64,000 bases of DNA from Pyropia yezoensis (lineage: Eukaryota > Rhodophyta > Bangiophyceae > Bangiales > Bangiaceae): NCBI GenBank assembly GCA_009829735.1, contig CM020619.1, forward strand, positions 2,052,590-2,116,589. The letters run 5' to 3'. Position 1 is the first letter of the stretch. Each line of letters opens with the position of its first letter. The notes beneath the pieces were generated by a model. The model was not told the DNA's origin and made no database searches. It worked only from the letters and a program-made list of their open reading frames with translations. The translations under genes were made by a program, and so were the position numbers. Of this stretch, positions 20,153 through 44,870 are shown piece after piece.

Positions 20153-20515
20153 TGTAGCAATATGGTTGGCCGTATTGTGACCCTAATATTAGGGGGGCTA
20201 CCTCTAACCCTTAACTTTCAATTCGGGAGTCCGTACTGGTCACGGTATCTATAAGTTACGTATGACCAGAGGGACTTGCATCTTGGGGTGGAGGGTAGTT
20301 AGTAGTGTCTCCGAGGGTTTATAACGAGGGGGCCGGCGGCGAATCCACCGCCGGCCATGGTAGAACAACAAACCCCTCCCATTTGGGCTCCCATCTTGGT
20401 CCCGTGGCTTGCGCTCCAAGGACAGCAACCTTGGCCTCCCGGTGACGTTGGTGCCGATCCCCCCTGGTGAGTGTTCCCTGAGAGTGGACGTGCAGCGGAT
20501 ACCTATTGTGCTACA
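20153..20515 (+). repeat. 5' LTR of element A
   Basis: 363 bp, TGTAGCA...TGCTACA. TATA-like gtttataacg near 20319 could be the promoter. Differs from the 3' copy at three sites by my reading, all near the 5' end. Confidence 0.95.
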
Positions 20516-20535: not shown

Positions 20536-20740
20536 GGGTTTCCGTCACCCTTGTGGTGACGCCGTCTTCGGCCCTGGCACACGGATAGGGATCCAGTCCT
20601 TTTCTTGTACTCGTGGTGCTGCGATCTGTTTGATTGTTTTGAGTGGTTGCGTTTGACTGCGATCTACGGTTACTCTCCCCCAACTACCCCCTCGCTCTCT
20701 TATTCGTGGTGACTGTTACGTCGGTTGACTGATTGTGACT

Positions 20741-22838: not shown

Positions 22839-23306
22839 TGTGGCAGTATTGACCCCCAGGTAGGGGGCAACACGTGCCATGCAAGGGGCGGCAGGCCACT
22901 AGCCTGATCCGTTCCTCCCCCTGCATTTGGGTCCATATTCCCTAAGTTCGGGATAGTTAGCTTAGTAGTAAATCCAACTTGGATTTGAGGGTTTTCTGCA
23001 TTTATCGTCTTGAATTTTCGTGTGGCCCGGTGGGCAGGTGCTGGGGTGGGAGATTCTGAGTGGCGAGATTCTGAGTGGACCCTGGGGGGATAAGGGGAGG
23101 GACAGCGGGGCTTGGCCCTGCGTCCCCGTCCCGACCAAGAAACTGTTGGACCACACACCATCTTCTTGTTTGTCCGTGGGGGGATTGCCCCACAACAGGG
23201 ATAGAGTGTGTGCGACTTGCACTTCTTCCGGTTCCCCCGACACGGGAGGCAGCCCTCGCACACCGCCCCAACTTGGGTACTGTGTGTGCGAGTGGTTTTT
23301 GCCACA
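22839..23306 (+). repeat. 5' LTR of element B
   Basis: 468 bp, TGTGGCA...TGCCACA. Contains a direct repeat of gagattctgagtgg near 23048-23077. Same sequence at 36386-36853. Confidence 0.95.
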
Positions 23307-23327: not shown

Positions 23328-23425
23328 AGAGGTAAACTTTACCTCCGGGTGCACCCGGGTGTAGGGGGCCCTCTGTCTCAGAGGAACGGTGGACTTGGAC
23401 CGTGTCATACGGATCGTTAGCCAAC

Positions 23426-25372
23426 ATGGCTAGCTCGGACCCCCCGTCGTCCGGGGAGTACACGGGTGACGCACGTACTTCAGTGCCTTTGAATACTGGT
23501 GAGACACAGGTGGGTTTACCTGGGGTCGCAGAGGGACTAGAGGTCCCTCAAGCCAGCAGGACTGGAAGTGCGGGCGGGCAACAGGCCACCCCGACTCAGT
23601 CGGGAGTTCACTCGGGTGACACTTCTGACGTGGGTGGGCCGAAGTCTGGCCACCGCGTGGTATACTCAACGGGAACGTCCCAAGGGGTGAGGACTGTCCC
23701 CGCGAGTTCCACTCGGGTTGGAGCCAACTTTGGCATGGAGCCATCGCCAACTAGGCTTTCGGAGGACGGCGGACCTCCGTTGGTCGGCGATGGGCTCGCG
23801 CCCATGCCCCCGGTTGAGACCCCTGAGGAACGTGGTTACCCCTCAGGTGGACTCCCGGAGGTGGACCGAGACTCAACTGGAGTCGTCAATCCACTCCTCG
23901 CGGAAACTGTCCGTCGGGAGGCGACCACTGTGTTGCGGCAGACTTTGCCGGACCTGGTGGTCACGATGACGAATACTATTCTGAATCAGATTGTGGCGAG
24001 TTTGCCAGATGGCCTTAATGTCCAGACCGGATTGGGGCCTTCGAGCCCGCAGGCGCAGGGGGTGCCCCCCCTGACACCTATCTCGGGTCGCCCTGAACAG
24101 GGGGCGACCCCTGTGACTCCCAACGAGGGAGCCACACCATACTCGGTGGGGCGTACGCCCTTCATGGGGGAGTTCCCCCCGACAACACCGGCGGCTACAC
24201 CAAGCGCGCCGCGCCGGACTACAGGCACTGTGGGTGAACTTACCCCAGTGCCACAGCGGCTGTTCCCTCAACGTGAGGTGCCGCCCAAGATCCAGGTAGC
24301 CAACCCGGTCTACCAGAGGATCTTTGACTGTGAGACCTACGCCCTCCACAACAAGTCGGTGGCGTATGGTCCTGACCAGGCCCGAGCCATGGGCCGTGCC
24401 AAGAAGAATGCACTTCACTCTTTTGGGCACAAAGCGGAGTGGGATGGAACTCCCCCCCTCCGTGTCTTTGAGTTCCTACGTCGTTTCACAAAAGCCTGTG
24501 ACGACAATGCCATAAGTGAAGGCATGGCTTTTTACATGCTACAGGAGTTTACGAAGGGAGACCTGCGGACAGAACTTATGTCCGTCATGCCCAGCTCCTC
24601 AAGTGGAGGCGCTGGGAAGGTGACGTCCTATTTGGAGCTCGTCAACTGGTTGTTGAGGGCCATGGTTGATGAAGCGGCGTTGGCTTCTCAAGTCGAGGAG
24701 TTTACGCAAGCCCATCAGGAAGAGGCGGAGGACGAGTTGTCCTTTGCGGAGCGAGTCCGTAAGCTCAACAATCTTTGTGGGTTTCTTCATCCACAAGCTG
24801 TGGTGAAGAGTCGGTTTGTGGAAGGACTCCACTGGTCAGTCCGGATGGAGACCCGGGAGCATAACACTGCCCGGGCGACCCTGGCCGAGTTGGCTAGGTT
24901 CGCCTACCGCAGAGGCGAGGCCTACCGCAAGTTGCGGGAAGAACAACGCCAGGAGCGTCAGGCCGAGTTGGCCAAGGAACGGGAAGAGGCGCGCCAGGCC
25001 AGAGAGTTGCGAGAGGCACGCCGAATCCGCAAGGAGAGGGTGGTAGCTGCCGTGGGAACTTCCCAAGGTACCTCGTCGTCTTCCCCAGTTGGGAAGACCC
25101 CTCCGGGAACTGATCATCGGTGTTGGAACTGCAACTCCGATGGTCACTGGGCATATGATTGCCCCAAGTTGAGTAAACGCATCCAACAGCTTGTTAGGAA
25201 TGCGAGTAAGAAGTCGGCTACGAACGAAGTGCGTTCACGCCGCGAGGGTGGGTCTCGACCAGTGGTGGCGGTCGCCACACCCTCGACGGAGGGGGCGGAC
25301 ACGTCGTCCTCGGACTCGTCGTCGTCCCCTTCGCCCTCAGATTCGGACGCCAAGTCGGCGGGAAACGAATGA
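23426..25372 (+). CDS. gag of element B
   Basis: 648 residues from the ATG at 23426. Order: ~290 residues rich in Thr, Pro and Gly; a capsid region (~residues 300-500) with FDCETYALHNKSVAYGP, MAFYMLQEFTKGDL and LSFAERVRKLNNLC; a charged Arg/Glu coiled-coil-like stretch (~500-545); one intact CCHC knuckle (C566, C569, H574, C579: CWNCNSDGHWAYDC); and a Ser/Asp-rich acidic tail. It ends at a TGA (25370) that overlaps the pol ATG. Pol is in the -1 frame and a slippery heptamer lies just before the stop, so Gag-Pol is probably made by frameshifting. It acts as the structural protein of the particle. Confidence 0.9.
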   Translation: MASSDPPSSGEYTGDARTSVPLNTGETQVGLPGVAEGLEVPQASRTGSAGGQQATPTQSGVHSGDTSDVGGPKSGHRVVYSTGTSQGVRTVPASSTRVGANFGMEPSPTRLSEDGGPPLVGDGLAPMPPVETPEERGYPSGGLPEVDRDSTGVVNPLLAETVRREATTVLRQTLPDLVVTMTNTILNQIVASLPDGLNVQTGLGPSSPQAQGVPPLTPISGRPEQGATPVTPNEGATPYSVGRTPFMGEFPPTTPAATPSAPRRTTGTVGELTPVPQRLFPQREVPPKIQVANPVYQRIFDCETYALHNKSVAYGPDQARAMGRAKKNALHSFGHKAEWDGTPPLRVFEFLRRFTKACDDNAISEGMAFYMLQEFTKGDLRTELMSVMPSSSSGGAGKVTSYLELVNWLLRAMVDEAALASQVEEFTQAHQEEAEDELSFAERVRKLNNLCGFLHPQAVVKSRFVEGLHWSVRMETREHNTARATLAELARFAYRRGEAYRKLREEQRQERQAELAKEREEARQARELREARRIRKERVVAAVGTSQGTSSSSPVGKTPPGTDHRCWNCNSDGHWAYDCPKLSKRIQQLVRNASKKSATNEVRSRREGGSRPVVAVATPSTEGADTSSSDSSSSPSPSDSDAKSAGNE

Positions 25373-25405
25373 CCGTTGGAGCTGGTCGTCCGAAGCTCAC
25401 AACGG
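25360..25405 (+). promoter_or_regulatory. -1 ribosomal frameshift signal of element B
   Basis: G GGA AAC at 25360-25366 sits in gag phase. A 6-nt spacer (gaatga, containing the gag stop) is followed by an 11-bp stem: 25373-25383 (CCGTTGGAGCT) pairs with 25394-25405 (AGCTCACAACGG) with a single bulged A, and a 10-nt loop. Loop bases ccga could pair with tcgg at 25411-25414 as a weak pseudoknot. Slip, spacer and stem match the known -1 frameshift architecture, and pol is open in the -1 frame. Not experimentally known here. Confidence 0.75.
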
Positions 25406-28400
25406 CAGCCTCGGCCAAGTGGGCCAAGAGGACGAATCAACCGTGTCGGATACTGCGGCGACCTAAGGGAGTCCGCCCACCTCGGGTGGGACTTCCCAAG
25501 AACGTAAACCCACGTCGGGTCATCGCGGTGCTGACGGGTGAGAATTTCCAGGTGGCTGGACGGGTGCAACTTGCCCCCGGCCGCGCCTGTTGTGTCCGTA
25601 TCGTACTTGATACCGGGTCAGGAGCCTCCTTGATACGCAAGTCGCTATTACCAAAGGGGATGAGGCTCCAACGCTGGAAGTCTAAAGCTGACCATCTGAT
25701 CGATATCAATGGTGGGGTACTTCCCATCGTTGGTGCCGTGACCCTACCAACTCGGTTGGGGACCCATGAGGTCGACGTGACCTATGGAGTAGTTGAGAAT
25801 ATATCGGTACCCCTGCTTCTGGGTACCCCTTATGTCGTAACACAAGTGCCTTTGATTTGTGGCCCTGAGTACTGGGTCAAGTTGATGAATGGGGAGACTA
25901 TCCCCATCCTGGGTAAGGGAAAGTCTGTGGCTCCTGTGACAGTTTCACAGTCGAAGCCTGTTTGTTCTGTGAGGGAAGGGTTTACTGCTACTCTGCGTTT
26001 AGCCCGTAAAGTCATGTTGCCCCCCAACTCGGTGGCGCACGTGGATGTTGTAACTGATTATGCGGGGAACGGGTTGGTGCACCCTAACCCCCGTCTTGCT
26101 CGCAAGCACCAAGTGCATGTTGCCCTTGGCACGATGGACTCCAAAGCCGGAGTCCCGTGGAGGATCCAGGTGATGAACCTGAGCTCGTCGCCCAAGTTCT
26201 TCAAGTCGGGGGCCAAGTTCGGCTATATCGACCAACACGAGGGACCGGTAGTAGCGGTCACCCTCAGCGCGGGCGCAAGTAGCGACCCGAAGTCCGGAAA
26301 GGAGAAGCATCAAGCCAAGTCGGCCGCCTCTCCTCGGCCCCAGGTAAACATGGAGGGTGTTCCACCCAGGTTGAGGGCTCAAGTTGAACGCCTCTTGGAC
26401 CAATATCACAAGTTGTGGGATGGTCAATTGGGACTCATGAGAGCTACCCAACACCGGATCGAGTTGAAACCCGGTGCGCCCCCTATACGCCAACAACCGT
26501 ATAGGGGGGGACCCCGTTCAAGGGCCCTCGTTAAGGAGCAAGTTGCTCGCATGGAGGCCCTCGATGTGATCGAGGCCAGCAACGCCGAGTGGGCGAGTCC
26601 GGTGGTGATCGTCCCCAAAGTTGATGGGACCCCCCGGTTCTGTATCGACTACCGTAAGCTCAACGAGAGCACGGTGAAGGATAGTTATCCCCTACCTCGG
26701 ATGGATGACTGTCTGGACTCTCTGGGGGAGGCAAACGTGTTCTCTACCCTGGACTGTAACGCGGGGTACTGGCAAATTCCCATTGCCCCGGAGGACAGGC
26801 ATAAAACTACCTTTACCTGTCACTGTGGTACCTACCAGTGCAAGCGTCTACCGTTTGGCCTGTGTAACGCGCCGGCAACTTTCCAGCGCGCTATGGACAT
26901 GATTCTGGCCGGAGTACGGTGGCAGATCTGTCTCGTGTACCTAGACGATATCATTGTGTTCTCCCGAAGTCCGGAGGAACACATTGGCCATCTTGGCCAG
27001 GTGTTCAAGCTACTTGCTGACGCCGGAGTGTCACTGAAGGCGAGTAAGTGCCACCTCTTCACTCAAGAGGTGGAGTACTTGGGACATGTTGTCCGTCCGG
27101 GGCGTCTCAGTGTCAACGAGAAAAACTTGAGGGCCATCCGCGAGGCTCAGTACCCCCGGACCCAGACCCAGATGAGGAGCTTCCTCGGGATGTGTAACGT
27201 GTACCGACGTTTCACTAAGGGCTTCGCCAAAGTGGCGAAGCCGTTGAATGAGTTAGTGAGCTCAACGCTACCGAAGAACCTGCCTCCCCCAAGTCGGGTG
27301 GAGCAGGAATCCTTTGAGACTCTTCGGGACCTTCTGCTGAAGCCCCCTATCCTGGCTATTCCCAGGTTGGGAGGCCACTACATCCTGGATGTGGACGCTA
27401 GCTACGACCAACTTGGTTGTGTGTTGCTTCAGCAACAGCCGGACAAGGAGTACTTGCCGGTGGGATACTTCAGCAAGGGGCTAAACTCGGCCGAGAAGAA
27501 CTACGGAGTCACCGAGTTGGAAGGACTCGCAGTGGTATGGGCGGTGACGTCACTTCGTCACTACCTAGAGGGTGAGAAGTTCCTCATCCGCTTTGACCAC
27601 CGCGCGTTGCAGTTCATCTTCAAGACGGACTGTACGAACACTCGTCTCAACCGGTGGAGGGTGCGACTTGCACCCTTCAACTTTGATATTGAGTACCGAC
27701 CTGGCAGGCAACATGCCCTTGCCGACGGCCTCTCTCGGGTACCTACCGAGGGACTGGACACCACCCCAGTCGATGAGGACATCCCCATCGTGGGGGTAGT
27801 CACGCGCTCGGGTCAGGCGTTGAATCCCGAGGCGCCAGGGAACAAGAAGTACTTGCCCCTGTCCCTGGACGAAGTAGTGAAGGCCCAGGCCGAGGATCCC
27901 TTCTGCAAGTCGCAGAGGGATACCCTGGATACAGTGGCGGAGACGCGGTTCTTCCTGGGAGACGATGGCCTCCTCATGAGGAGGGGGGTATTCCAGGGGA
28001 CCGAACAACTTGTCGTCCCCGCATCCCTCAAGGACAGTATCCTTGAGAGGGAGCATAACGCTCCCACGGGTGGACACCTGGGGTCTAGTAAACTGTACCA
28101 GACCCTGAGGACCAGGTACTACTGGCCGTCCATGGTGGTGGACATCTACAGTTGGGTGGCTGCCTGCACAAGTTGTGCACAGAACCGTCTGATGGAACGG
28201 CGGCCTACTACGGCTATGCTATTGTTCCCGGCCAAGGAGCCCTTCGCCGCGTTGGCGATGGACATCCTTGGGCCACTGCCAGTGACCGAGGAGGGCAACC
28301 AGTACCTCCTGGTCATCTGTGACCGCTTCACGAAACTTACGCGAGCGATCCCACTGGCAGAGATCACGGCCATGTCGGTCGTGTCAGCCTTCCTAGATCA

Positions 28401-29350
28401 CTGGGTTGCCGCGTATGGCATTCCGGATAGTACACTATCGGACAATGGACCGCAATTTGCGTCTGTACTGTTTCAAGGAGTGCTGGATATGTTGGGGGTT
28501 AAGGCAAACTATGCCACCCCCTACCACCCACAAACTAATGGGCAGGTGGAGCGCTTCAACAAAACTATTGTTAGGCAGCTGCGCCATTATGTGAGTGAGC
28601 ACGTGAAGACGTGGGACCAATACATTTCTATTCTGACCACTGCCTACAATTCGCAGGTTCACTCATCTACCGGGGAAGTACCCCTCGCTTTTGTGACCCC
28701 CCGTCGCGTGCGGTCTATTGCCGTGCGGCGGCCGCTCCCAACTAGGGAGGATGGTGGCAGTACGCCCACTCCTACTGAGAGTAAGGCGGAGTTCGCTGCT
28801 AGGCTTGAAAACCTCATCCCTAAAGTCAGGGCTGAGATGGACAAAGCACAAAAGCGCTACAAGCGTACCTTTGACAAAAAGGTGCGCAACGCCAAGCATG
28901 TCCCGAGCAGGGTGACTGGGTATTGGTCCACTCACACACCCCAACTGGGGTAAGTTGGTGTTCCAGACGAAGGGGCCGTACCAGGTCCTTCGTACTGATG
29001 GGCGGCGCTTCACCATCGAAAGTGACGATGGGGTCCGCACAGTGAACGGACAGGACGTGGTCAAAGTTGCACCACCGCCTGCAGGCGACCCAGCTTGGGC
29101 GCGTGCTTTGAAAACGTGGCGCCTGCCCTCGCTGCCTGCAGCCAAACAGGGCCCGCAGGAGTACGTGTTCGACAAGTTCATCGACCACGGCTGGGATGAG
29201 GATACTGACCGCCTCATGTTGAGGGTGCGTTGGTTTGGCTACAAAGCCAAGGATGATACGTGGGAGTATGTGGAGGACCTTCCTGCTGAGAAGGTCCGGG
29301 CGTACTGTGCCCGGAACGAGATAGACCCTAACAGCCCTCCCTCAACGTGA
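25369..29350 (+). CDS. pol of element B, left assembly copy
   Basis: Reads from the slippery site (or ATG 25369) through a retropepsin (DTGSGAS, residues 81-87), RT (FCIDYRKLN, YLDD at 524-527), RNase H (DVDASYDQLG, ~675), zinc-binding HH-CC and integrase core (MDILGPLP, LSDNGPQF, NGQVERFN), and a chromodomain after 29160 (VRWFGYKAKDDTWEYVED). Two single-base losses near 28904 and 28950 break the frame before the chromodomain; the right-hand copy has the extra bases there and reads through, so these are probably assembly errors. The corrected protein is about 1,327 aa from the ATG. RT copies the RNA, integrase inserts the DNA, and chromodomains direct integration to modified chromatin. Confidence 0.88.
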
Positions 29351-30429: not shown

Positions 30430-33400
30430 AATATATCGGTACCCCTGCTTCTGGGTACCCCTTATGTCGTAACACAAGTGCCCTTTGATTTGTGGCCCTG
30501 AGTACTGGGTCAAGTTGATGAATGGGGAGACTATCCCCATCCTGGGTAAGGGAAAGTCTGTGGCTCCTGTGACAGTTTCACAGTCGAAGCCTGTTTGTTC
30601 TGTGAGGGAAGGGTTTACTGCTACTCTGCGTTTAGCCCGTAAAGTCATGTTGCCCCCCAACTCGGTGGCGCACGTGGATGTTGTAACTGATTATGCGGGG
30701 AACGGGTTGGTGCACCCTAACCCCCGTCTTGCTCGCAAGCACCAAGTGCATGTTGCCCTTGGCACGATGGACTCCAAAGCCGGAGTCCCGTGGAGGATCC
30801 AGGTGATGAACCTGAGCTCGTCGCCCAAGTTCTTCAAGTCGGGGGCCAAGTTCGGCTATATCGACCAACACGAGGGACCGGTAGTAGCGGTCACCCTCAG
30901 CGCGGGCGCAAGTAGCGACCCGAAGTCCGGAAAGGAGAAGCATCAAGCCAAGTCGGCCGCCTCTCCTCGGCCCCAGGTAAACATGGAGGGTGTTCCACCC
31001 AGGTTGAGGGCTCAAGTTGAACGCCTCTTGGACCAATATCACAAGTTGTGGGATGGTCAATTGGGACTCATGAGAGCTACCCAACACCGGATCGAGTTGA
31101 AACCCGGTGCGCCCCCTATACGCCAACAACCGTATAGGGGGGGACCCCGTTCAAGGGCCCTCGTTAAGGAGCAAGTTGCTCGCATGGAGGCCCTCGATGT
31201 GATCGAGGCCAGCAACGCCGAGTGGGCGAGTCCGGTGGTGATCGTCCCCAAAGTTGATGGGACCCCCCGGTTCTGTATCGACTACCGTAAGCTCAACGAG
31301 AGCACGGTGAAGGATAGTTATCCCCTACCTCGGATGGATGACTGTCTGGACTCTCTGGGGGAGGCAAACGTGTTCTCTACCCTGGACTGTAACGCGGGGT
31401 ACTGGCAAATTCCCATTGCCCCGGAGGACAGGCATAAAACTACCTTTACCTGTCACTGTGGTACCTACCAGTGCAAGCGTCTACCGTTTGGCCTGTGTAA
31501 CGCGCCGGCAACTTTCCAGCGCGCTATGGACATGATTCTGGCCGGAGTACGGTGGCAGATCTGTCTCGTGTACCTAGACGATATCATTGTGTTCTCCCGA
31601 AGTCCGGAGGAACACATTGGCCATCTTGGCCAGGTGTTCAAGCTACTTGCTGACGCCGGAGTGTCACTGAAGGCGAGTAAGTGCCACCTCTTCACTCAAG
31701 AGGTGGAGTACTTGGGACATGTTGTCCGTCCGGGGCGTCTCAGTGTCAACGAGAAAAACTTGAGGGCCATCCGCGAGGCTCAGTACCCCCGGACCCAGAC
31801 CCAGATGAGGAGCTTCCTCGGGATGTGTAACGTGTACCGACGTTTCACTAAGGGCTTCGCCAAAGTGGCGAAGCCGTTGAATGAGTTAGTGAGCTCAACG
31901 CTACCGAAGAACCTGCCTCCCCCAAGTCGGGTGGAGCAGGAATCCTTTGAGACTCTTCGGGACCTTCTGCTGAAGCCCCCTATCCTGGCTATTCCCAGGT
32001 TGGGAGGCCACTACATCCTGGATGTGGACGCTAGCTACGACCAACTTGGTTGTGTGTTGCTTCAGCAACAGCCGGACAAGGAGTACTTGCCGGTGGGATA
32101 CTTCAGCAAGGGGCTAAACTCGGCCGAGAAGAACTACGGAGTCACCGAGTTGGAAGGACTCGCAGTGGTATGGGCGGTGACGTCACTTCGTCACTACCTA
32201 GAGGGTGAGAAGTTCCTCATCCGCTTTGACCACCGCGCGTTGCAGTTCATCTTCAAGACGGACTGTACGAACACTCGTCTCAACCGGTGGAGGGTGCGAC
32301 TTGCACCCTTCAACTTTGATATTGAGTACCGACCTGGCAGGCAACATGCCCTTGCCGACGGCCTCTCTCGGGTACCTACCGAGGGACTGGACACCACCCC
32401 AGTCGATGAGGACATCCCCATCGTGGGGGTAGTCACGCGCTCGGGTCAGGCGTTGAATCCCGAGGCGCCAGGGAACAAGAAGTACTTGCCCCTGTCCCTG
32501 GACGAAGTAGTGAAGGCCCAGGCCGAGGATCCCTTCTGCAAGTCGCAGAGGGATACCCTGGATACAGTGGCGGAGACGCGGTTCTTCCTGGGAGACGATG
32601 GCCTCCTCATGAGGAGGGGGGTATTCCAGGGGACCGAACAACTTGTCGTCCCCGCATCCCTCAAGGACAGTATCCTTGAGAGGGAGCATAACGCTCCCAC
32701 GGGTGGACACCTGGGGTCTAGTAAACTGTACCAGACCCTGAGGACCAGGTACTACTGGCCGTCCATGGTGGTGGACATCTACAGTTGGGTGGCTGCCTGC
32801 ACAAGTTGTGCACAGAACCGTCTGATGGAACGGCGGCCTACTACGGCTATGCTATTGTTCCCGGCCAAGGAGCCCTTCGCCGCGTTGGCGATGGACATCC
32901 TTGGGCCACTGCCAGTGACCGAGGAGGGCAACCAGTACCTCCTGGTCATCTGTGACCGCTTCACGAAACTTACGCGAGCGATCCCACTGGCAGAGATCAC
33001 GGCCATGTCGGTCGTGTCAGCCTTCCTAGATCACTGGGTTGCCGCGTATGGCATTCCGGATAGTACACTATCGGACAATGGACCGCAATTTGCGTCTGTA
33101 CTGTTTCAAGGAGTGCTGGATATGTTGGGGGTTAAGGCAAACTATGCCACCCCCTACCACCCACAAACTAATGGGCAGGTGGAGCGCTTCAACAAAACTA
33201 TTGTTAGGCAGCTGCGCCATTATGTGAGTGAGCACGTGAAGACGTGGGACCAATACATTTCTATTCTGACCACTGCCTACAATTCGCAGGTTCACTCATC
33301 TACCGGGGAAGTACCCCTCGCTTTTGTGACCCCCCGTCGCGTGCGGTCTATTGCCGTGCGGCGGCCGCTCCCAACTAGGGAGGATGGTGGCAGTACGCCC

Positions 33401-33985
33401 ACTCCTACTGAGAGTAAGGCGGAGTTCGCTGCTAGGCTTGAAAACCTCATCCCTAAAGTCAGGGCTGAGATGGACAAAGCACAAAAGCGCTACAAGCGTA
33501 CCTTTGACAAAAAGGTGCGCAACGCCAAGCATGTCCCCGAGCAGGGTGACTGGGTATTGGTCCACTCACACACCCCAACTGGGGGTAAGTTGGTGTTCCA
33601 GACGAAGGGGCCGTACCAGGTCCTTCGTACTGATGGGCGGCGCTTCACCATCGAAAGTGACGATGGGGTCCGCACAGTGAACGGACAGGACGTGGTCAAA
33701 GTTGCACCACCGCCTGCAGGCGACCCAGCTTGGGCGCGTGCTTTGAAAACGTGGCGCCTGCCCTCGCTGCCTGCAGCCAAACAGGGCCCGCAGGAGTACG
33801 TGTTCGACAAGTTCATCGACCACGGCTGGGATGAGGATACTGACCGCCTCATGTTGAGGGTGCGTTGGTTTGGCTACAAAGCCAAGGATGATACGTGGGA
33901 GTATGTGGAGGACCTTCCTGCTGAGAAGGTCCGGGCGTACTGTGCCCGGAACGAGATAGACCCTAACAGCCCTCCCTCAACGTGA
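30430..33985 (+). CDS. pol of element B, right assembly copy (5' truncated)
   Basis: Starts at the gap inside the protease region. One extra C near 30482 shifts the first codons, so the continuous frame begins at 30485; from there RT, RNase H, integrase and chromodomain read through to the stop at 33983-33985 without a break. The protein is the same as the left copy apart from the indels. It supplies the correct join between integrase and chromodomain that the left copy lacks. Confidence 0.88.
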
Positions 33986-34563
33986 GGGAAGGCCGAGCAA
34001 CAGTGCCAAGAGAGTGCTTCAAGTCGAAGTGGTACGCAGAGTGGCTTTAAACTACAGCCCTAACCCTCACACTCTCACAACAAAGGCAGCTGCCAACTAG
34101 GCACGCATGCTAGACTCTCCCACTCCACGGCCCTCGCCCTCACGTGGAGGCGAGCGGCGAGACCCACGCCGATAACGGTCTCCACTCGTTGGAAGGGGCG
34201 GCGGCTCCAAGTCGGAACCGTCGCGCCCCTCACGGTCGCGCAAGTGGCGCCGACCGTGGCTACTCTTCTGCCTGGTCTTGCGCGCAAGTTTGCGACGCAG
34301 ACGCTGGACAGACTCCGTCTCCGATGGGGTAGAGGACTCCGAGACGGAGTAGGACAACTCGTCTTCCGACACGGAGGGAGAGCGCCGCGAGTGACGGCGA
34401 CGACGGCGAGGAGGCGAGTATGCCCGGCTCGCACGACGCTTGCCACGCCCAAATGGGGTTGGCTGGGGCATAATAGCCCCAATGCGAGCCAACTCGGCCG
34501 TCATAAACTCCGCCACCGACTCGCAACTCGCGGTCGCCACTGCAGTACGAACGCGCTCCTCAA
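30430..34563 (+). repeat. right member of the assembly duplication
   Basis: Same sequence as 25798-29929. Beyond 34563 the element continues uniquely to its 3' LTR. Confidence 0.9.
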
Positions 34564-36040
34564 GTTGAGGAGTCTCGGAACTTTGGAGGGTTGCGGTCGA
34601 CGCGGCCAACCAGGAAATGGTGCGCACCAACGTGGTGATCATCATCTCTGAGGTTAGAGGCGTGGGCGGTAACACCAACTTGGGGTATACCGTCAGGAGG
34701 GTGGCCCCCAAGTTGGGAGACACCGGTGTGGATGACTCCACGGCCACGCTGATCGGGATGTTCCCGTGAGGCTGGAAAGGAACAGGAGGAAGCGGAGGGG
34801 CACGCCGAGGTGGCGGTACCCGGGTGTAACTGCGACCCCGACTTGGGGCCCCCGCAGTAGGTTGAGTCATATGGTCATCATATGAGGGCACAGCCATAAC
34901 TATGGGCTTGTCCGGGGGTGGCGCAGTGTGACGATCCACCCCCGGGGCATACGGGTAGTCCCCGATGCCCAACCCCTCTCGTAGGACCACACGGCCGTCG
35001 TGAAGTTCACGAGCGACCCACACGAACTGGCGAAGTGCGCCATCGTCCTTGGGCCCTCGAGTGGGGCGGCGCAACTTGTGCTCAATGCTCTCCCACTCGA
35101 TAAACTTGTGGAGGCGGAGCATCTCCTCAAGTAGAGTGAGTTGTCCTCACGAGCACCCCTCAGCAACTAGCTGAGGGGTGAGCTGTTCCAAACCCTGGAT
35201 GAGCCGGAGGGGGAGATGCCAGAGCATCCCCCGCCGCTGAACACATGACACCCAGGTCGACATGACCTCGAGGAGCCACTGGGTGGCCAACATGGCCCAC
35301 ACCAGATGATCAGGGCCAGCCGTCAACATGACGGAGCCGAAGTGGTCAAGCAACCGTGGCAACAATGCCGGGAACCCGTAGAGGACCTCAACTTGAGGCC
35401 ACCACTCGGGCTTCTTCGGGTAGTATTGCTCCTTACTGGCAGCAGACTGCTGAGGAAACTCAAGTTGAGCCGAGGTCACCAAGTAGGGACCTCGCCGGAA
35501 GTCCTTCTCCATCCGCACATCAAAGTGATGAGTGTGCGGATCGGCCTCGTGAAGGTACGGGGGGCGAGTTGCCACCGCGTCCCAAGTGAAGGTCGGCAAG
35601 TCGCCGGGACCCGGGATAGTTCCCCCGCGGTCCACCATGGCCTTGGCCCGCTGCACGTCCTCGACCTCCTCGTCGTCCAGGAAGGCAAACTGGTCCGTCC
35701 TGAAGCCGGCAGGGAACCCGACCCTACGGGGATACTTCTCCCGTAGGCGGTCCCATACCCGACCCATCGCTGCGCCGAGTCGGCCACAGCGAAGAACAGT
35801 CAACCCCTCCTCATACAGAGGCCAAGCGGGGTAAAACCACCGCCCCAAGGCCTCACGCGGGACAACTTGTCCCACCTCCGGGGGAGATCCTGCCGTCAAC
35901 CCAAAGCCGGGTGACGCGGGAGTCCCACCCCCCGGAGCGATCGCGGAGCCCCCGCCGGAAGTCCCGGCAGGCGCTGCACCGTAGGAGGTGTCCTCCATAC
36001 GCTCATCGAGAGAGTCCGTCTCTACTCCCGGAGTCGCCAT
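34097..36040 (-). CDS. antisense ORF of element B, interrupted by one TGA
   Basis: From the ATG at 36040, opposite to gag-pol, the frame runs to a TGA at 35149-35147 and then on in the same frame to 34097, 647 codon positions in all. N-terminal ~60 residues are Gly/Ala/Pro-rich. A folded-looking middle follows (WYPAW-like FYPAWPLYEEG, HFGSVMLTAGPDH, VQRRGMLWHLPLRL, and after the TGA LLEEMLRLHKFIEW). The C-terminus is Arg/Ser-rich (RRRRRHSRRSPS...), nucleic-acid-binding or nuclear in character. The segment aligns distantly with the antisense ORF of element A. The TGA is one C-to-T change from CGA. No family recognised. Transcription could start in the 3' LTR, 346 bp upstream. A partial duplicate of its C-terminal part lies at 29464-29929. 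Confidence 0.6.
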
Positions 36041-36372
36041 GGCTCTCCCCAAGTGGGGGAGAGACGTCCTGGCTATCGCGGCACGAGACCCGCCTCGAGT
36101 TGAGGGGGACTCGGATCGTGGGTAAACGGGTGGCCTCCCCAGCGTGGGGTGGCCCCGTGTAAGGTGAAGGAGAAGTGGTGGTGGTGGTGAGGTGTGAACC
36201 GAGGAGAGCAAGCTGCCAAGTGGGCAAGCTTGAGGAGAGGGGCGGCCAACGTGACCGCCTCCACATCCGCGTTACGTACTCAAGGGGGGACAGCAAGTCG
36301 CGTCCCCCCCCCCCAACGCCGAGACGTGCGTTTACGCACCCCCTCACAGGGCCGACCGGGTCGGTCGGAACT

Positions 36373-36385
36373 GAGGAGAGGGGAG
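36373..36385 (+). promoter_or_regulatory. polypurine tract of element B
   Basis: gaggagaggggag directly before the 3' LTR; expected plus-strand primer. Confidence 0.7.
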
Positions 36386-36853
36386 TGTGGCAGTATTGAC
36401 CCCCAGGTAGGGGGCAACACGTGCCATGCAAGGGGCGGCAGGCCACTAGCCTGATCCGTTCCTCCCCCTGCATTTGGGTCCATATTCCCTAAGTTCGGGA
36501 TAGTTAGCTTAGTAGTAAATCCAACTTGGATTTGAGGGTTTTCTGCATTTATCGTCTTGAATTTTCGTGTGGCCCGGTGGGCAGGTGCTGGGGTGGGAGA
36601 TTCTGAGTGGCGAGATTCTGAGTGGACCCTGGGGGGATAAGGGGAGGGACAGCGGGGCTTGGCCCTGCGTCCCCGTCCCGACCAAGAAACTGTTGGACCA
36701 CACACCATCTTCTTGTTTGTCCGTGGGGGGATTGCCCCACAACAGGGATAGAGTGTGTGCGACTTGCACTTCTTCCGGTTCCCCCGACACGGGAGGCAGC
36801 CCTCGCACACCGCCCCAACTTGGGTACTGTGTGTGCGAGTGGTTTTTGCCACA
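36386..36853 (+). repeat. 3' LTR of element B
   Basis: 468 bp, no difference seen from the 5' LTR. Confidence 0.95.
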
Positions 36854-36858
36854 AGGAG

Positions 36859-37022
36859 TACTGGCCGTCGAGGAGGCAAATCCTCTCCCGGATATCCCGG
36901 AAGATAATACCCGGCCGAGCACGGGAAACGAGAAAGAGGAAGGACGACACGGGGTCGCTGGGGTAACCCTAGCAAGCCACCCCGGAGTACCGCGGGGAAA
37001 GCCCCACGGAGAGCGCGGTTGA
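36859..37022 (+). CDS. gag of element A, part 2
   Basis: Continuation of gag after the element B insertion; the codon split at 22838/36859 restores the frame (PGVLAVEEANPLP). It ends at the TGA 37020-37022. The pol frame (-1) is open from 36908, so gag and pol overlap by ~115 nt. Confidence 0.85.
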
Positions 37023-40000
37023 GCCGACGCCGCATCAACCCCCGGGTACACCTTCCGGCCCCGACGACACGGCGTCAGGGGATTGATGACCAACCACCAA
37101 GGTTGGGAGGGGAGGACGGGAAGCCCCGTCACATGGAACCAGACAAGGGACCTGTCCAGGATGACCGAGCTACACCGGATATCGGTGTAGGCCACGTAAT
37201 GTTCACCTTGGACAACTTCAAGGTAGCAGCCACACTGGGGGTTGACCCACAGTCGACCCGATCGTATTACCCTGTACTGGATACAGGGGCTGGACCTAAC
37301 CTGATCCGGAAGGATACCCTCCCGGACAAGTGGCTCCCGCGAGTCAGAGTTGCTCGGGGGCCCACGATCAAGGATGCGAATGGTCGTCTCATTCGTACGA
37401 CCGCAGCGATGTCGCTGCGGGTCACCATCAGGGAGCTCACTGCGGAAGTTGACCTTCTCGTGTGTGAGACTCTATCTGTGCCCTGCATACTGGGGTGCAC
37501 CTTCATCAACGTTCACGTTGATGCAATCCGGCCGGGCCGGAGGACCGTCGAGCTGCAAGAGGCCGAAGGGACGAAGAGAGGACAGACAGCTATCGTCAGG
37601 GACCTGACGCTACAAGGGAGCCACGATAACGTGGCTGAGGTATACGCCAGCGTAGAACCGAAGACTCTCCGGCTGGCCAAGCGGACTCGCTTTGATCCGT
37701 TATCGGAGACCGTCCTCCCGGTTAACTGTGACCTCGCAGGCATCTGTAGAGTCCAGTCCAACCTACGAACCTACAAGCGCCATGGGTTGACCATGGCCAA
37801 CGGTATCGTAGACCTCCCAGCGGGGGGGTCATGACTGCTTGTGATGGCGAACTATCGCCGTAAGGCAGTCACCCTTCCGAAAGGAACTATACTCGGGATT
37901 GCCCAGCTCTACGAAGGAGACATCTTTACCCCTGACAAGGAAGGTCAAGTGGAACCACTTGAGGTACTGGCGGTCGCCGAGACCACCGAGCGGCAGCAAC
38001 CCGATGACGGGAAGCCTAACCCGTCGACAGCTCCGGCGGACATTCCGCCAAAGGACCAAGAAGCCTTGAAGGCACTGGCCGAGGCTGACCTCGACCTCCT
38101 TCCCCCTTCGGTGGCGGAAGGGGTACGACGGATGCTAAGAAAGCATGATGTCATGTGGACCGGCGGGGCGCTGGGTACCATTGGGGCAACCCAACACCGT
38201 ATAGACCTGGTACCAGGTGCTCGACCAGCGCGGTCGCAACCGCATCGCGCGGGGCCCATGCAACGAGAGATCGTTGATGGAGAAGTGAAGAGGATGAGCG
38301 AAGCTAAATTGATCTGACCTTCGATGTCGGAGTGGGGCGCCCCAGTCGTTATCGTACCGAAGAAGGATCAAACCCCTCGGTTCTGCATCGATTACCGACG
38401 CCTCAACTTGGTTACCAAGAAAGACTCCTACCCTTTACCAAGGATGGACGAGTGCATCGACTGGCTGGGGGAAGCCACAGTGTTTACCACTATCGACTGC
38501 AATGCCGGGTACTGGCAGATCCCAGTTGCAGAAGAGGATATCCCCAAGACGGCGTTCGTCTGTCACAATGGCGTGTACGAGTTCCTAAGGATGCCCTTCG
38601 GATTGTCCAACGCCCCCGCCACATTCCAGCGGGCCATCGACATTAAACTGTCGGGAGTCAAGTGGCGTAACTGCCTGCTGTACTTGGACGACGTCATCGT
38701 CTTCTCGCGTAACATGGATGACCATGTGCAACATGTCGACGAGGTACTCACCCTCTTGCGGAACGCCGGGGTAACCCTGCGCCTCAAGAAGTGCGCCTTC
38801 TTTCAGCAGACCGTCGAGTATCTGGGTCACCAGATCACACCAGGTAGACTGGGAGTGCTTGAAGCCAATAACCGGGCACTCCGGGATGCGCGATACCCGA
38901 CCACCCAGACACAGCTGAAAAGCTTCCTGGGGATGTGCAACGTATACCAACGGTTCGTCAAGGACTTCGCTCGTATAGCCAAACCGTTAACGGTTCTGAC
39001 GAGCAGCGCCTTGCCAAAGGTACTCCAACCTCCCTCGCTCAGCGAGGGAGGGGCATTCGAGCTGCTCAAGCAAGCTCTGCTAGCCCCACCCGTGCTTGCG
39101 TTGCCGCATAGACGCGGGACCTTCGTCATCGACGTCGATGCCTACGGTACCCACGTGGGATGCACCCTGTTACAGAGAGAGACAATCCATAATGCTATCC
39201 CGGACCTACATCCGGTAGGGTACTTCAGCCGGACACTCAACCCGGCTGAGCGCAACTATAGTGCCACCGAGCGCGAGTGCCTCAGAGTCATATGGGCAGT
39301 GCAACCGCTCCGGCCATACCCGGAAGGATCCAGGTTCATCGTGAGGTCCGACCAAGAACCTTTAAGATGTCTCCTCAACCTTGGTGACAAGGATTCCGAC
39401 AGCCATTGACGGCTAGCCCGGTGGAGGCTTAAGATGGCCGAGCACGACTACCGGACCATATATAAGGCCGGCGCTACCCATCATCTGGGAGACGCGCTGT
39501 CGCGACTCGATACACCGAGCGGGGATACCCGACAAGAGGACGAGGACATCCCGGTGGTACCGGTTTGCATGGTGGGTAACGCCACCTAAGGTATGGTTGA
39601 CCATACCATGGCACACCTGGCGTGCCCATGGACCCTCGCGGACTCCCGCGAGGCACAGGCCAATGAGGATTACTGTAAACGCCATCACCCTAACCTCCTG
39701 GCCGGCACGGCCGGCATCTTCTCCGAGAATGACGACGGACTCATATACCGAGCACCCGCCGATGGACGACATCAAGTCGTGGTTCTCGTGTCCTTTCGAG
39801 GAGCCGTCATGGAACGAGAACACGAGATCCCCATTGCCGGACACCCGGGGGGTTCGCGCATGTTCGCAGCAATGCGAAGGTTCTTCTACTGGCGAGCAAT
39901 GGTCGTCGATGTAATCGACCACGTGCGGGGATGCCACCAGTGTGCACGGAATCGTATGAGTCTTCATAGGCGGGCATCCGCTATGAAACTGTTCCCCCCG

Positions 40001-41098
40001 GATGGGCCCGACGAGCAAGTCGCTATCGACATACTCGGGCCGCTTCCGGTAACGGAAGAAGGGAACAGGTATATCCTGGTCATGTCGGATCGCTTCACTA
40101 AGCTGTCACGGGCAGTGGAAATCCCGAACGATACGGCCTACACGATCATGAACGCAGTGGCTGACCACTGGATCAGTGCTTACGGAGTAATGAAGCAACT
40201 CCTCTCCGATAACGGAGCAAACTTTACGTCAGCATTCTGCACTAAGGTCCTGGGCATGTTCGGTATCGAACCCCGTCGGGCATCCGACTACCACACGCAA
40301 TCCAACGGGCAGGTGGAGCGGTTCAACCGCACCATCGTCAAGATGCTCCAATGCTATGTGGCGGAGCACACGAAGACGTGGGACAGGCTTCTGTCCGTCT
40401 TGACCCTGGCATACAATGCCAGGCCCCACCGGAGTACCAGCATTGCCCCACTGGAATGGGTCATGCCGATGGGCGTCGGTAACCTGACGCTGCCACCGGG
40501 CAGATGAACTCGGTATGACATACCGAAGGGCCGACCGGCCAAACGGATCCACTTAGCTTGGTTGGCCAAGCTATCGTGGATGATACCGAAGCTCAAGGGT
40601 GCCCTTGACCGTACACAACTTCGATGCAAGAAGAACTTTGACGCCCGGCTACGGGTACGCAACGCAACCCTGGTAAAAGGTGACTGGGTCTATATCAGAC
40701 ACCAGAAGTTCGGAGGGAACAAGTTTATGCAACCGGTCAAGGGACCGTACCAGATCTTACACAGAGATGATCACTCTGTCATCCTGCACTCCGATACGGA
40801 GATACAACGCATCAATCTCAATGATGTGACACCTGCTCCAAAGCCGGAACAGCCTCAGCCGGTACCGGCTGGGTTGCTACGCGAAGCTCTTACAACCCAC
40901 CGGTCAGATGACCCGGTGGGGCCGGATGGGATTCCATACCAAGTAGAGAGCGTGGTCGGACACACCGACCCGGACCTACCAGGACCCTGGTACGTCAAGA
41001 TGATGTGGGTCGGATACGACTCACCCACCTGGGAACAGGCGGCGAATATACCCCGCCAACTTCTCATGCCTTACATGAGGCGACGACGCCTACTGTAA
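36908..41098 (+). pseudogene. pol of element A, five in-frame stops
   Basis: A single uninterrupted phase, without frameshifts, broken by TGA 37832, TGA 38315, TAA 39587, TGA 39407 and TGA 40505. Visible domains: retropepsin DTGAGPNLI (~37280), RT with FCIDYRRLN and YLDDVIVFS (~38380-38710), RNase H DVDAYGTHVG (~39130) and GDALSRLD, integrase HH-CC (~39820-39950) with DILGPLP, LSDNGANF and NGQVERFN, and a C-terminal chromodomain (VKMMWVGYDSPTWEQ, ~41000-41040). All catalytic residues seen are kept. Four stops are TGA where CGA (Arg) suits the context, and TAA fits CAA (Gln), so each is one C-to-T change. The copy cannot make full-length Pol. Confidence 0.9.
36923..36929 (+). promoter_or_regulatory. 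slippery heptamer of element A
   Basis: G GGA AAC in gag phase, 90 nt before the gag stop; pol is open in the -1 frame from here. Downstream, CGGGGT (36950-36955) can pair with ACCCCG (36979-36984) around an inner hairpin GCTGGGG/CCCTAGC (36957-36973). The spacer, about 20 nt, is longer than usual. Confidence 0.65.
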
Positions 41099-41579
41099 AA
41101 ACCCAACCGACACCGACTTCGGCTGTTGGGGGGTGAGGCTTATACCTCCTAAGTAGGGTGTCACATGGATTCGGCAAGACTTAGGTTCACTAAGTTGAAG
41201 CGGACTTAGGCGAACTAAGTAAGCTACTGACTTTTACAAGTTTACTTGAAGGAGATGACTAACTCCGATACATTCAAAGTGACCTGAGGCTTACACCAAT
41301 GTAAACCTTCATCCATGGGGCAAGTGACGGACCAAGGAAGGTTGACCTTCAGGAGTATTAACCAACCAGGATGGGTTGGGGGGCGCGAGAAAGAACCGAG
41401 GCACGCCACGGCTAAGTCAGACGGGGTACTCCCCAAAGGCAGGCATTGGTATCATGCAAACGCCCCAGCGGGGGATGAGTTTATACTCACTACTACCCGG
41501 CCACCATAAGGGTCGCCAGGTCCCTCTCCCTCACAAACAATAGCACTCCTCAGTGGGTAGACCCACTGCCCGAGGGAGG
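41099..41579 (+). other. element A spacer between pol and antisense ORF
   Basis: No ORF. Contains aactaagt-type direct repeats (about 41180-41225). Confidence 0.5.
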
Positions 41580-43919
41580 CTACTCACGCGTAAGCGCGTA
41601 CACCTCCAAGCTCCACCGGTCGGCAATCTCACGACGGTCAATCGCCCGAGTTACCTCGGTGCATAGCTGGACGAGGATGCTGCGGCCAGCCTCCACGTCC
41701 TCCAGAGCGGACTGGAGGCGGTCCAGCACGCCACCGAAGCAACGCGCGGACCCAACCAGCGCAGCACCTGGGGGGATATCCCCCCAGCTAACAGAGAGAC
41801 CCTCCCGCATCTCGCGGGCGATGAGGGCGTCAACGCCCTCATACCATAGACGGGGACCCCCGTCACGCATGACAGGGGCGGAAGGTGACACTGGCGCAGC
41901 CAGAGGAGCCACAGGAGCCGACACGGCTACCACCGGAGCCGGTGGCGCCTGATACGAGGCCCGGTAGGACCCTACTGAAGGAGCTCCACCGTAACCCCGG
42001 CGGGGCTCCGCCCGACGACGGGACACCTCACGCTCCCCACCCGCAGAGCCCCACTCTCGGGGACGACGGCCAACCACCATCGGTATCGGATTACCGAACC
42101 ACGGGGCGAGGATCTGAAGAGGGTCATGGATAACCATGGGAATACCCAGGTCAGGAACAGCCTCGGTGGACGCCCACCCACGGCAATTGGGCTCACCCGG
42201 CTGAGTACGCCGGATACGCAACGAGTGACGAGGCAAGGGGGCAGCCCCAGCCTGCGGGTCCCGGTACGAGGGAAGGGCCAACACCCCAGCCCAGTTCACG
42301 GCATTGTGAACAGCCAGCAGGGCCTCGAACTCTCGGGCCAACCCGGTCTTGGCAGCTATCATGTCCACGCCCAGCTGCCCGATGTGCCGACGGACACCCG
42401 TCGGAATATGAAACAGGCGCCCCTGCCGGCGGACGGACAGCAAGAAGGAGGAAGCCTGCCCGAGGGTAACCTCAAGGGTGAAGGTACCCTGCAACGGGTA
42501 CACCGGCCGGGAGGCCAACACACTCCCGAAGTATCGGAGACAGGAGCCGGTGTCAAACCGGAAAGCAGGGGCGGGTTCCCACACCTCCTTCCACAGAGGC
42601 GGGCGCACGGCAGTGTACACCGGCGCACGACCGTAACCGGTCTGCAACGCACACGTTATATCGGTGGGGAACGCATCCGCCATGACACCATGGTTGCGTC
42701 GCCAACTCGACGCCGACTTCAACCCCGCCATGGGTGGGTACGGAGCCGTCAACGTCAGGTACGGGGATACCCCCGGGAAGTACTCAAACCCGGGATACCG
42801 GCCGGTATCACCCACCGTCTCCCCAAACGCCACCGGATCCGCCGCCGCCGCAACCCCCCGAGCACTAGCCGGGTCGTCAACCTCCCGCGGCATTGCGGGG
42901 GCAATCAAGTCGCATATACCGAAGGCGGAGTCGAGGTAGACTTCACCCCGCTCCATCCGGGTGCGCCAGAGCTGCGCATGCCGGTCGTCCGGCTGACTCA
43001 GGATCCAATGATGTTCCACCCGGACCGCGTTCGGCTGGTTGATCAGCCGCACCAACTCCCGCTCCCAACTCGGGTCCACCTTGACGCGCCGGGAGGACTC
43101 TCCAGGGTGACGCGTCTGGTGGAAGTCCACCCGCATCCGCCCAGCGGAGTCCATCGACTCCTGCACAGTCATGCCTCGAACCCGAGCCACCAAGTCGGAC
43201 ATCGTCATGGCGGGTTGACCTGCAGCCAAGGCGTCGCCGCCACCCAACGGGGCAACCCGGGCAGGACCAGGAAGAATCGGGGGCCCCGGGGGGTGCCCCA
43301 CCGGCAGATGGGCCGGCACCGGAGGCGCACAGGGCCGAGGAGGAAGAAGAAGGGCGGGAGTCCGTCCGGAGTAGCCCCCGGAGTCCACCGCCATCGGAGT
43401 AGACACTTCTTGACCACCAAGCGCCCGCGGCACCGCGGGCAGAGCATCGCCGCCACCCGGGCCCGACGTCGGCACCCCGGAGGTAGCAGGGGTAGACCCG
43501 TTACCCGCCGCCACGGACACACCAACCGGGCGGGCACTCGCGCCGTCTTGACCCGCCGTCCCGGCCGGGGTGCCGCCACGACCGTCCGACACACCGGCGA
43601 CGGCGTCTTGAGGTAGAGCCGCGCCGGCACCGGCGACAGGAGCCATCCGGGCCGCTGGAGGAGTAGGGGTAGAGGCAGCTGCTACACGCGGTTGCCCGCC
43701 ACCCGACGGAGCCGTCGTGCCGCTGCACACGGACGACAATCCGCCCGGCGCGCCTTCCGGGGCCACACGAACGGTCACCCGGTCGCCTTCGTCCTCCGAC
43801 GAGCTCTCCAAGAAGCACTCGGCGGCGGTGGCAGAGACGGGAACGTCGTCCACCATCACCTCCTCCTCCTCCTCAAGCAGGAGGTCGTCCTCGCCCCCGG
43901 GTACCTGGGGGTCCGACAT
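41580..43919 (-). CDS. antisense ORF of element A, 779 aa, intact
   Basis: First ATG at 43919 (MSDPQVPGGEDD); an in-frame GTG extends to 44114. Order: acidic N-terminus (LLLEEEEEVMVDD), ~230 residues rich in Gly, Ala and Pro, then ~400 residues of ordered composition (VKVDPSWERELVRLINQPN, YPGFEYFPGVSPYL, FRFDTGSCLRYFGSVL, VRRQGRLFHIPTGV, EFEALLAVHNAVNW, DLGIPMVIHDP) and a tail with another helical stretch. No stop in 2.3 kb, although sense pol of the same copy has five. Distantly similar to the antisense ORF of element B. No known family; envelope-like features such as signal peptide or membrane span are absent. The 3' LTR, ~590 bp upstream, could supply an antisense promoter. Confidence 0.65.
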   Translation of the reverse strand: MSDPQVPGGEDDLLLEEEEEVMVDDVPVSATAAECFLESSSEDEGDRVTVRVAPEGAPGGLSSVCSGTTAPSGGGQPRVAAASTPTPPAARMAPVAGAGAALPQDAVAGVSDGRGGTPAGTAGQDGASARPVGVSVAAGNGSTPATSGVPTSGPGGGDALPAVPRALGGQEVSTPMAVDSGGYSGRTPALLLPPRPCAPPVPAHLPVGHPPGPPILPGPARVAPLGGGDALAAGQPAMTMSDLVARVRGMTVQESMDSAGRMRVDFHQTRHPGESSRRVKVDPSWERELVRLINQPNAVRVEHHWILSQPDDRHAQLWRTRMERGEVYLDSAFGICDLIAPAMPREVDDPASARGVAAAADPVAFGETVGDTGRYPGFEYFPGVSPYLTLTAPYPPMAGLKSASSWRRNHGVMADAFPTDITCALQTGYGRAPVYTAVRPPLWKEVWEPAPAFRFDTGSCLRYFGSVLASRPVYPLQGTFTLEVTLGQASSFLLSVRRQGRLFHIPTGVRRHIGQLGVDMIAAKTGLAREFEALLAVHNAVNWAGVLALPSYRDPQAGAAPLPRHSLRIRRTQPGEPNCRGWASTEAVPDLGIPMVIHDPLQILAPWFGNPIPMVVGRRPREWGSAGGEREVSRRRAEPRRGYGGAPSVGSYRASYQAPPAPVVAVSAPVAPLAAPVSPSAPVMRDGGPRLWYEGVDALIAREMREGLSVSWGDIPPGAALVGSARCFGGVLDRLQSALEDVEAGRSILVQLCTEVTRAIDRREIADRWSLEVYALTRE

Positions 43920-44495: not shown

Positions 44496-44505
44496 AAGGG
44501 GGGGA
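44496..44505 (+). promoter_or_regulatory. polypurine tract of element A
   Basis: aaggggggga just before the 3' LTR (two bases, ta, intervene). Confidence 0.7.
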
Positions 44506-44507
44506 TA

Positions 44508-44870
44508 TGTAGCAATATGGTTGGCCGTATTGTGACCCTAATATTAGAGGGGCTACTTCTAACCCTTAACTTTCAATTTGGGAGTCCGTACTGGTCACGG
44601 TATCTATAAGTTACGTATGACCAGAGGGACTTGCATCTTGGGGTGGAGGGTAGTTAGTAGTGTCTCCGAGGGTTTATAACGAGGGGGCCGGCGGCGAATC
44701 CACCGCCGGCCATGGTAGAACAACAAACCCCTCCCATTTGGGCTCCCATCTTGGTCCCGTGGCTTGCGCTCCAAGGACAGCAACCTTGGCCTCCCGGTGA
44801 CGTTGGTGCCGATCCCCCCTGGTGAGTGTTCCCTGAGAGTGGACGTGCAGCGGATACCTATTGTGCTACA
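44508..44870 (+). repeat. 3' LTR of element A
   Basis: 363 bp. Three transitions relative to the 5' copy, in the first ~85 bp. Confidence 0.95.

Follow-up and report, generated by a model that had tools for sequence, protein, structure and literature searches.

Two Ty3/gypsy retrotransposons in a 64,000-nucleotide stretch of the genome of the red alga Pyropia yezoensis (G000:C2:2052590-2116589; hereafter the window, to which coordinates refer unless a contig is named) each carry a long open reading frame (ORF) between pol and the 3′ long terminal repeat (LTR), on the strand opposite to gag and pol. The two elements, A and B, are arranged so that B is nested in A, inserted into the gag of the latter. 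The antisense frame is shown here to be conserved as an amino-acid sequence under purifying selection in family A and in a further family, E, and we regard it as nearly certain that it is a selected protein-coding gene common to families of one gypsy clade. The reading that we favour, with a probability of about 0.55, is that of an antisense third gene, located between pol and the 3′ LTR of a red-algal Ty3/gypsy lineage, whose product would be a soluble nuclear regulator made from a minus-strand transcript.

The antisense ORF of element A (41580..43919, minus strand) comprises 779 codons from its ATG. It is free of stops in the window copy although pol of the same copy, a single frame at 37019..41098 on the plus strand, is interrupted by exactly five, at positions 37832, 38315, 39407, 39587 and 40505, as a preliminary description of the window had remarked. 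The five remaining frames over the same interval contain 5 to 21 stops. The antisense ORF of element B (34097..36040, minus strand) spans 647 codons and has one stop in the window copy, at codon 298 (35147-35149), which divides it into two pieces in the ORF list; in other copies of B the frame is open across codon 298, reaching 724 amino acids in most of the 118 rows listed. The lengths of about 2-2.3 kb first given for the two ORFs were borne out at 1.9-2.3 kb, with the one stop in the window copy of B.

The A and B proteins share a block in the same order, YFGSV/HFGSV followed by RRQGRLFHIP/QRRGMLWHLP and then H..VNW/H..IEW, which had been recognised by eye and proved to be colinear in both BLASTP and hhalign alignments. 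BLASTP aligned the two proteins with an E value of 4e-9 and 24% identity across 240 columns. Comparison of profiles built from 8 A-type and 2 B-type proteins gave an hhalign score of 54.7 (E 3.3e-6 for one comparison) over residues 335-546 of A and 95-319 of B, far above the 24.9 that 60 column shuffles reached at most and the 24.2 obtained with a reversed profile. Inside the stretch aligned with B lies the core of the A protein (residues 430-560; 42240..42632, minus strand), which is predicted, at low confidence, to be helical.

The family extends beyond the window. A Pfam RVT_1 search of the genome (107,475,971 bases in 11 contigs, the three large ones being of 43,592,136, 34,331,705 and 29,385,039 bases) listed 150 reverse transcriptase (RT) places of 3,927 candidates, and nine stretches downstream of chosen RTs were examined. 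Three of the nine contain long antisense ORFs, measuring 847 (family D, L054), 880 (family E, L050) and 995 codons (family F, L049) from stop to stop. Each of these ORFs follows a pol tail that is homologous with the one in B (E 1.5e-40, 2.0e-11 and 4.9e-10, respectively) and lies on the strand opposite to it, the 3′ LTRs having been mapped in A and B only. BLASTP connected the antisense proteins of E and F (E 1.7e-17), E and B (1.7e-6), D and B (7.9e-6) and F and B (0.007), and hhalign connected B with D (E 4.6e-5) and E with F (E 1.3e-10). The B profile scored 50.2 against the combined E and F profile and 46.0 against D, where the maxima of 30 shuffles were 22.0 and 23.5. A combined B-to-G profile with B as its first row aligned with A over the core (score 63.7, E 4.2e-7; a comparison without shuffle control). 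Family G (L078, G000:C1:30710200-30712200) was found among the matches to F and aligned with a profile of E, its sister subfamily E2 and F at E 3.9e-12; the C-terminal part of G is long and, by eye, coiled-coil-like.

Copies of the antisense ORF are numerous. Because the genome searches score the best candidates only, the counts are lower bounds. The C-terminal 341 amino acids of the B protein gave at least 118 matches (those scored of 1,860 first-look candidates), which are 99-100% identical and of which 117 are without a stop. For A, at least 58 matches were obtained (scored of 25,844 candidates), 88-92% identical besides the query itself, 31 of them stop-free, and for D at least 63 (scored of 23,182 candidates), 61 of them stop-free. 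The E protein gave at least 71 matches in identity grades of about 97-100, 83-86, 71-73, 54-64 and 41%, and the F protein gave at least 66, six at 87-100% and the remainder at 25-35%, many of the latter being copies of E.

Selection was measured in families A and E. In 30 of the 58 scored copies of A, those listed as loci, the mean ratio of non-synonymous to synonymous rates (dN/dS) of the antisense frame was 0.368, whereas the other five frames gave 0.456, 1.217, 1.227, 1.339 and 1.358. The frame with the value of 0.456 has third positions that coincide with those of the antisense ORF, and it contains 18 stops in the window copy. The distribution of changes among copies separates two phases. 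Changes private to one copy are spread evenly over the codon positions (177/154/176) with 329 non-synonymous to 167 synonymous, as expected under neutral decay after insertion, whereas changes common to at least six copies fall mostly on third positions (13/13/62) with a ratio of 28:60, and the contrast between the two classes is strong (Fisher p 2.3e-9). This third-position bias of the shared changes, together with the even private ones, is the pattern expected from selection in the replicating lineage and subsequent drift of dead copies. Divided by part, dN/dS in A was 0.257 in the centre, 0.305 in the C-terminal part, 0.435 in the N-terminal part and 0.672 in the linker. A 496-amino-acid sense ORF (42126-43616) overlaps the antisense ORF of A; its frame is the one with the dN/dS of 1.227, a value that gives no sign of separate constraint.

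The cleanest single test of selection is the comparison of E with its sister subfamily E2 (L074), and it comes from a family outside the pair in the window. Over 611 codons the two antisense proteins are 73% identical, and the identity at the three codon positions is 0.815, 0.848 and 0.540. With a dN of 0.188 and a dS of 0.986, the ratio is 0.19, and residues 60-420 give 0.14, while the five other frames have ratios of 0.36 to 2.28 and contain 5 to 33 stops. The antisense-frame dN/dS is thus well below 1 in the A copies as well as between E and E2. Neither this result nor the significant A-B alignment refutes the preliminary description, which had named both as checks. A chance ORF in GC-rich DNA (the genome has a published GC content of 65%; PMC7423979), which the overlap of the antisense ORF of A by the long sense ORF might be taken to favour, has practically no probability left, being refuted by the A-B profile homology and the dN/dS in A and E, and opposed by the homology between families, the stops in the other frames of A and of E/E2 and the higher dN/dS of the latter frames.

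The families with the antisense ORF group together by RT. Sixteen RTs split into two clades, one containing A, B, D, E (three copies) and F and the other containing the nine remaining sequences (L059-L067), which share at least 90% identity among themselves and 37-41% with the first clade. Between families A, B, D, E and F, RT identity is 58-78%. B and D (71%) and E and F (77-78%) are sisters by RT, and the same pairs are best BLASTP partners by antisense protein. An antisense ORF was found in each of the five families of the first clade in which the 3′ region was seen, and the gene most simply predates the split of these families. The A and B antisense proteins are 24-26% identical, compared with 64% for the RTs and 26% for the pol tail; given the value for the pol tail, the rapid divergence of the antisense protein holds in comparison with RT and not with pol as a whole. 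Queries with the A and B families found no relative of either protein in the other six of the nine stretches (L047, L048, L051, L052, L053 and L055), several of which are filled by other nested elements. One of these, the clade-II stretch L048 (G000:C1:23121200-23125700), contains, on the antisense strand, a frame that measures 406 codons from stop to stop and matches neither the A nor the B protein. Absence of the antisense ORF from the second clade is therefore only suggested, in view of the choice of queries, the nested elements and this frame. Several pairs of clade-II RTs lie about 5-7 kb apart among the RT places listed, and the element carrying the D ORF happens to lie near a clade-II RT.

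Relatives from elsewhere were sought among 5.8 billion database proteins, of which the best 8,000 candidates by shared words were scored in each search, so that distant relatives may be missed. The A domain matched four 'hypothetical proteins' of Pyropia vietnamensis that are 52-58% identical, besides two close sequences at 87 and 89%, and a profile search added a fifth P. vietnamensis sequence at 45%. The B protein matched one close sequence (97%). The P. vietnamensis relatives are known as proteins, and are candidates for antisense genes of gypsy elements. Two alignments searched against viral contigs gave 29 and 97 pattern matches, none of which is a relative. The preliminary description had suggested a distantly homologous, conserved antisense protein family on the strength of two elements; it is now supported and wider, comprising five gypsy families in which the orientation was seen together with the P. 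vietnamensis sequences.

No known family was recognised in the proteins at the outset, and the database searches agree. Pfam gave no match at E ≤ 1 for A, B, D, E or F, which includes PF04195 (the TRP28 domain) and any bZIP domain; PHROGs and NCBIfam gave no match to the antisense proteins, and sequence searches of the PDB returned nothing better than E 0.26 and 0.77. The net charge of the first fifth is negative in all five proteins, ranging between −2 (D) and −15 (A); for the last fifth the values are +19 (B), +32 (F), 0 (A), −2 (D) and +4 (E). F has 28 arginine-serine pairs, E has 14 and the remaining proteins have 4-7 each, and basic clusters are many in B and F and single in A and in E.

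Genes at the same position and in the same orientation are known elsewhere, and they guide our reading of the algal one. In the grass Ty3/gypsy elements Grande (gene23), RIRE2, Wallabi and Gran3, a long antisense ORF likewise lies between pol and the 3′ LTR and is described as having no known similarity, and Grande gene23 is reported to have a promoter of its own and a nuclear product (PMC7264820). The host there is a flowering plant and here a red alga, and the comparison is one of description, not of sequence. TRP28 of Retand, which has the same location and orientation, is characteristic of an entire gypsy lineage and has been proposed to be a DNA-binding regulator (PMC11963269). Judged by its sequence, the algal protein is not a TRP28 protein, since its members lack PF04195; moreover, Retand is a non-chromovirus, whereas B has a weak chromodomain match. 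HBZ and APH-2 of HTLV-type viruses are nuclear proteins that a retroelement likewise encodes in antisense at its 3′ end (PMC11963269, PMC7264820); with neither bZIP nor another Pfam domain in the algal proteins, this is an analogy only. PvRetro13 ORF2, which has an SMC-like domain, is a further antisense accessory ORF that may be set beside the coiled-coil-like C-terminus of family G, whose orientation to pol was not seen. By their layout A and B, and by their pol tails D, E and F, fit the descriptive class aORF-3R, that of antisense accessory ORFs between pol and the 3′ LTR, and the stop-free proportions among the matches scored for A, B (C-terminal query) and D, together with the selection in A and E, agree with the class trait of many copies conserved as protein.

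Given a gene, a nuclear regulator appears the likeliest product, at somewhat over one half, followed by a particle protein and then by others, on account of the position, the orientation, the lack of membrane segments and the analogy to Grande gene23 and Retand TRP28. The gene would be transcribed from the minus strand, its promoter lying in the 3′ LTR or a short way inside it. The protein would be soluble and largely helical, with a net negative N-terminus and, in some families, a basic tail, and it would act in the nucleus, in trans, on the DNA, RNA or chromatin of the element itself. It may control transcription or counteract silencing, which is the role supposed for Grande gene23; the parallel with HTLV HBZ is no more than an analogy. 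The same promoter would also yield RNA complementary to the sense transcript, and protein and antisense RNA may jointly set the activity of the element.

Several observations weigh against this reading. The antisense ORF is under looser constraint than pol, with a dN/dS of 0.331 compared with 0.144 in the same eight copies of A (L009, L012, L013, L016, L020, L023, L025 and L027, with L040-L046; L039 was left out because its homologous pol lies only within 208 bases). In these copies dN is about equal in the two regions (0.036 in pol and 0.038 in the antisense ORF) and dS is 0.248 in pol and 0.114 in the antisense ORF, a gap for which recombination between subfamilies and nucleotide-level constraint in the 3′ part are possible readings. 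Close copies of E gave no signal, at 0.865 with other frames at 0.83-1.05, in six rows of which one is partly non-homologous; of the eight E stretches taken for this comparison, L070 had no match, the match of L075 covered 53 residues only, that of L073 was incomplete, and L074 was recognised at the protein level only. Not every pair of families is linked directly: A scored 20.9 against E and F (shuffle maximum 23.4) and 17.7 against E, E2 and F, D scored 19.9 against E and F, and A, B and D each scored 15.6-17.2 against G, so that by sequence comparison the coherence of the family runs through B. D has no basic cluster and a charge of only −2 in its first fifth. Structure models are poor, with a predicted local distance difference test (pLDDT) score of 32.8 for residues 246-779 of A and 55.6 for a second model, and a Foldseek search with the latter returned 27 rows, the best at E 3.8 and none at E ≤ 0.001, an outcome that we take to carry no information. 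With models of this quality and an empty Foldseek search, the term 'regulator' rests on analogy.

A bolder version, which we hold only tentatively, is that the proteins form an undescribed antisense-encoded superfamily characteristic of an entire clade of red-algal gypsy elements. It would have an origin separate from that of the antisense genes of plants and would diverge far faster than RT, as the A-B identities indicate, yet remain constrained, serving the element as an anti-silencing or transcription factor in a contest with the host. Less likely is a structural or particle accessory factor, such as a further Gag-like protein or one associated with the capsid, which would be translated from an antisense message and enclosed in virus-like particles. 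The length of the protein, its core, helical at low confidence, and the basic tail in B and F would suit such a role. On the other side, hhalign detected no similarity of the antisense proteins to gag A or gag B, although it related the two gags to each other at E 7.2e-9, and the antisense proteins contain no CCHC knuckle. The best BLASTP row to gag, E against gag B at E 0.012, was taken as chance. A duplication of gag as the source of the antisense ORF is disfavoured by the same lack of hhalign similarity.

We see a small chance that the antisense transcript rather than a protein is what matters, through double-stranded RNA or silencing control of copy number. Non-coding antisense RNAs are known in other retroelements (PMC7264820), and nothing in the sequence data shows translation, but the codon-position pattern and the dN/dS show conservation of amino acids. 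Little credence is given to a captured host gene carried without use to the element: extra ORFs can be acquired by transduction (PMC7264820), but this one was found in each of five families with RTs that are 58-78% identical, and purifying selection was detected in two of the five. In addition, the protein searches, which were the only search made for a single-copy host orthologue, yielded A- or B-like sequences only.

An envelope-like or cell-to-cell movement protein is very improbable. In its favour, red algae have pit connections, and the ORF occupies the position of env, between pol and the 3′ LTR. No 19-residue hydropathy window exceeds 1.6 in A, B, D, E or F, however, the highest being 1.54 in D, so that the movement role considered in the preliminary description is disfavoured; the orientation is antisense, and no Pfam family is matched. 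The env-like accessory ORFs of Athila and Bagy2 share the position but are in sense orientation and have transmembrane segments, neither of which applies to the algal ORFs (PMC7264820).

Element A (all plus strand) has a 5′ LTR at 20153..20515 (TGTAGC...GCTACA) and a 3′ LTR at 44508..44870, whose ends were fixed by the termini and a 5-base duplication, CTGGG; the repeat pair (20153-20519 and 44508-44874, 367 bases) is 98.9% identical. Its gag (20735..22834) is split by the insertion of B and is the one related to gag B, and a purine-rich stretch (44496..44507) precedes the 3′ LTR. Element B, likewise read on the plus strand, has LTRs at 22839..23306 (TGTGGC...GCCACA, within gag of A) and 36386..36853 that belong to a 472-base pair with 100% identity, and its insertion is flanked by the 5-base duplication AGGAG at 22834-22838 and 36854-36858. 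Between them lie gag with a CCHC knuckle (23402..25372; Pfam zf-CCHC, E 2.2e-5), pol in two assembly copies (25369..28953, with RVT_1, RNase H and integrase, and 30485..33985, with RVT_1 at 5.3e-36 and a chromodomain match at its end) and a polypurine tract (36373..36385). The interior of B at 25798-29929 is repeated as 30430-34563 (99.9%) beside a gap of 500 N, the differences being four single-base indels only; the doubling (25798-34563), which affects pol and part of the antisense ORF, is very likely a scaffolding or gap-filling artefact. Directly after the 5′ LTR, A (20520-20543) and B (23307-23330) have TGGAGCAGCAGGGGAC in common, likely a shared primer binding site. The label of chromovirus, given to the elements at first sight, rests on a chromodomain match in B that, at 19.7 bits (E 8.3e-4), is below the Pfam cut-off of 25.1; Pfam found the order RT-RNase H-integrase in both elements, and no chromodomain in the last open pol segment of A. 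A third element, C (46124-52876, LTRs at 46124 and 52430, 94.5% identical), has integrase before RT and is copia-like by eye.

In the published P. yezoensis genome, repeats make up 48.0% and LTR elements predominate (PMC7423979). Antisense accessory ORFs between pol and the 3′ LTR are already known in plants and fungi (PMC7264820), and antisense genes at this position are described in grass elements, Retand, PvRetro13, the fungal Boty and HTLV-like viruses. Accessory genes of algal transposons are described for other kinds of element, namely the brown-algal DNA transposon Sola1, with a gene opposite to the transposase strand, and red-algal EnSpm elements, for which accessory genes are mentioned (PMC12477816). 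In the open literature, judged by titles, the beginnings of abstracts and the papers cited here, with subscription journals outside its scope, such ORFs were not found to have been reported for LTR elements of red algae. The novelty suggested in the preliminary description for algal gypsy elements agrees with these searches, whereas the arrangement itself is not new. The function of the plant antisense ORFs is stated as not known (PMC7264820). The red-algal case provides a protein family deep enough for selection to be measured, with some hundreds of whole and partial matches in one genome (at least 118 for B, 58 for A, 63 for D and 71 for E), many of them stop-free. If such genes arose repeatedly, gypsy elements would share a need that gag and pol leave unmet, and the algal family would be a way to find that need.

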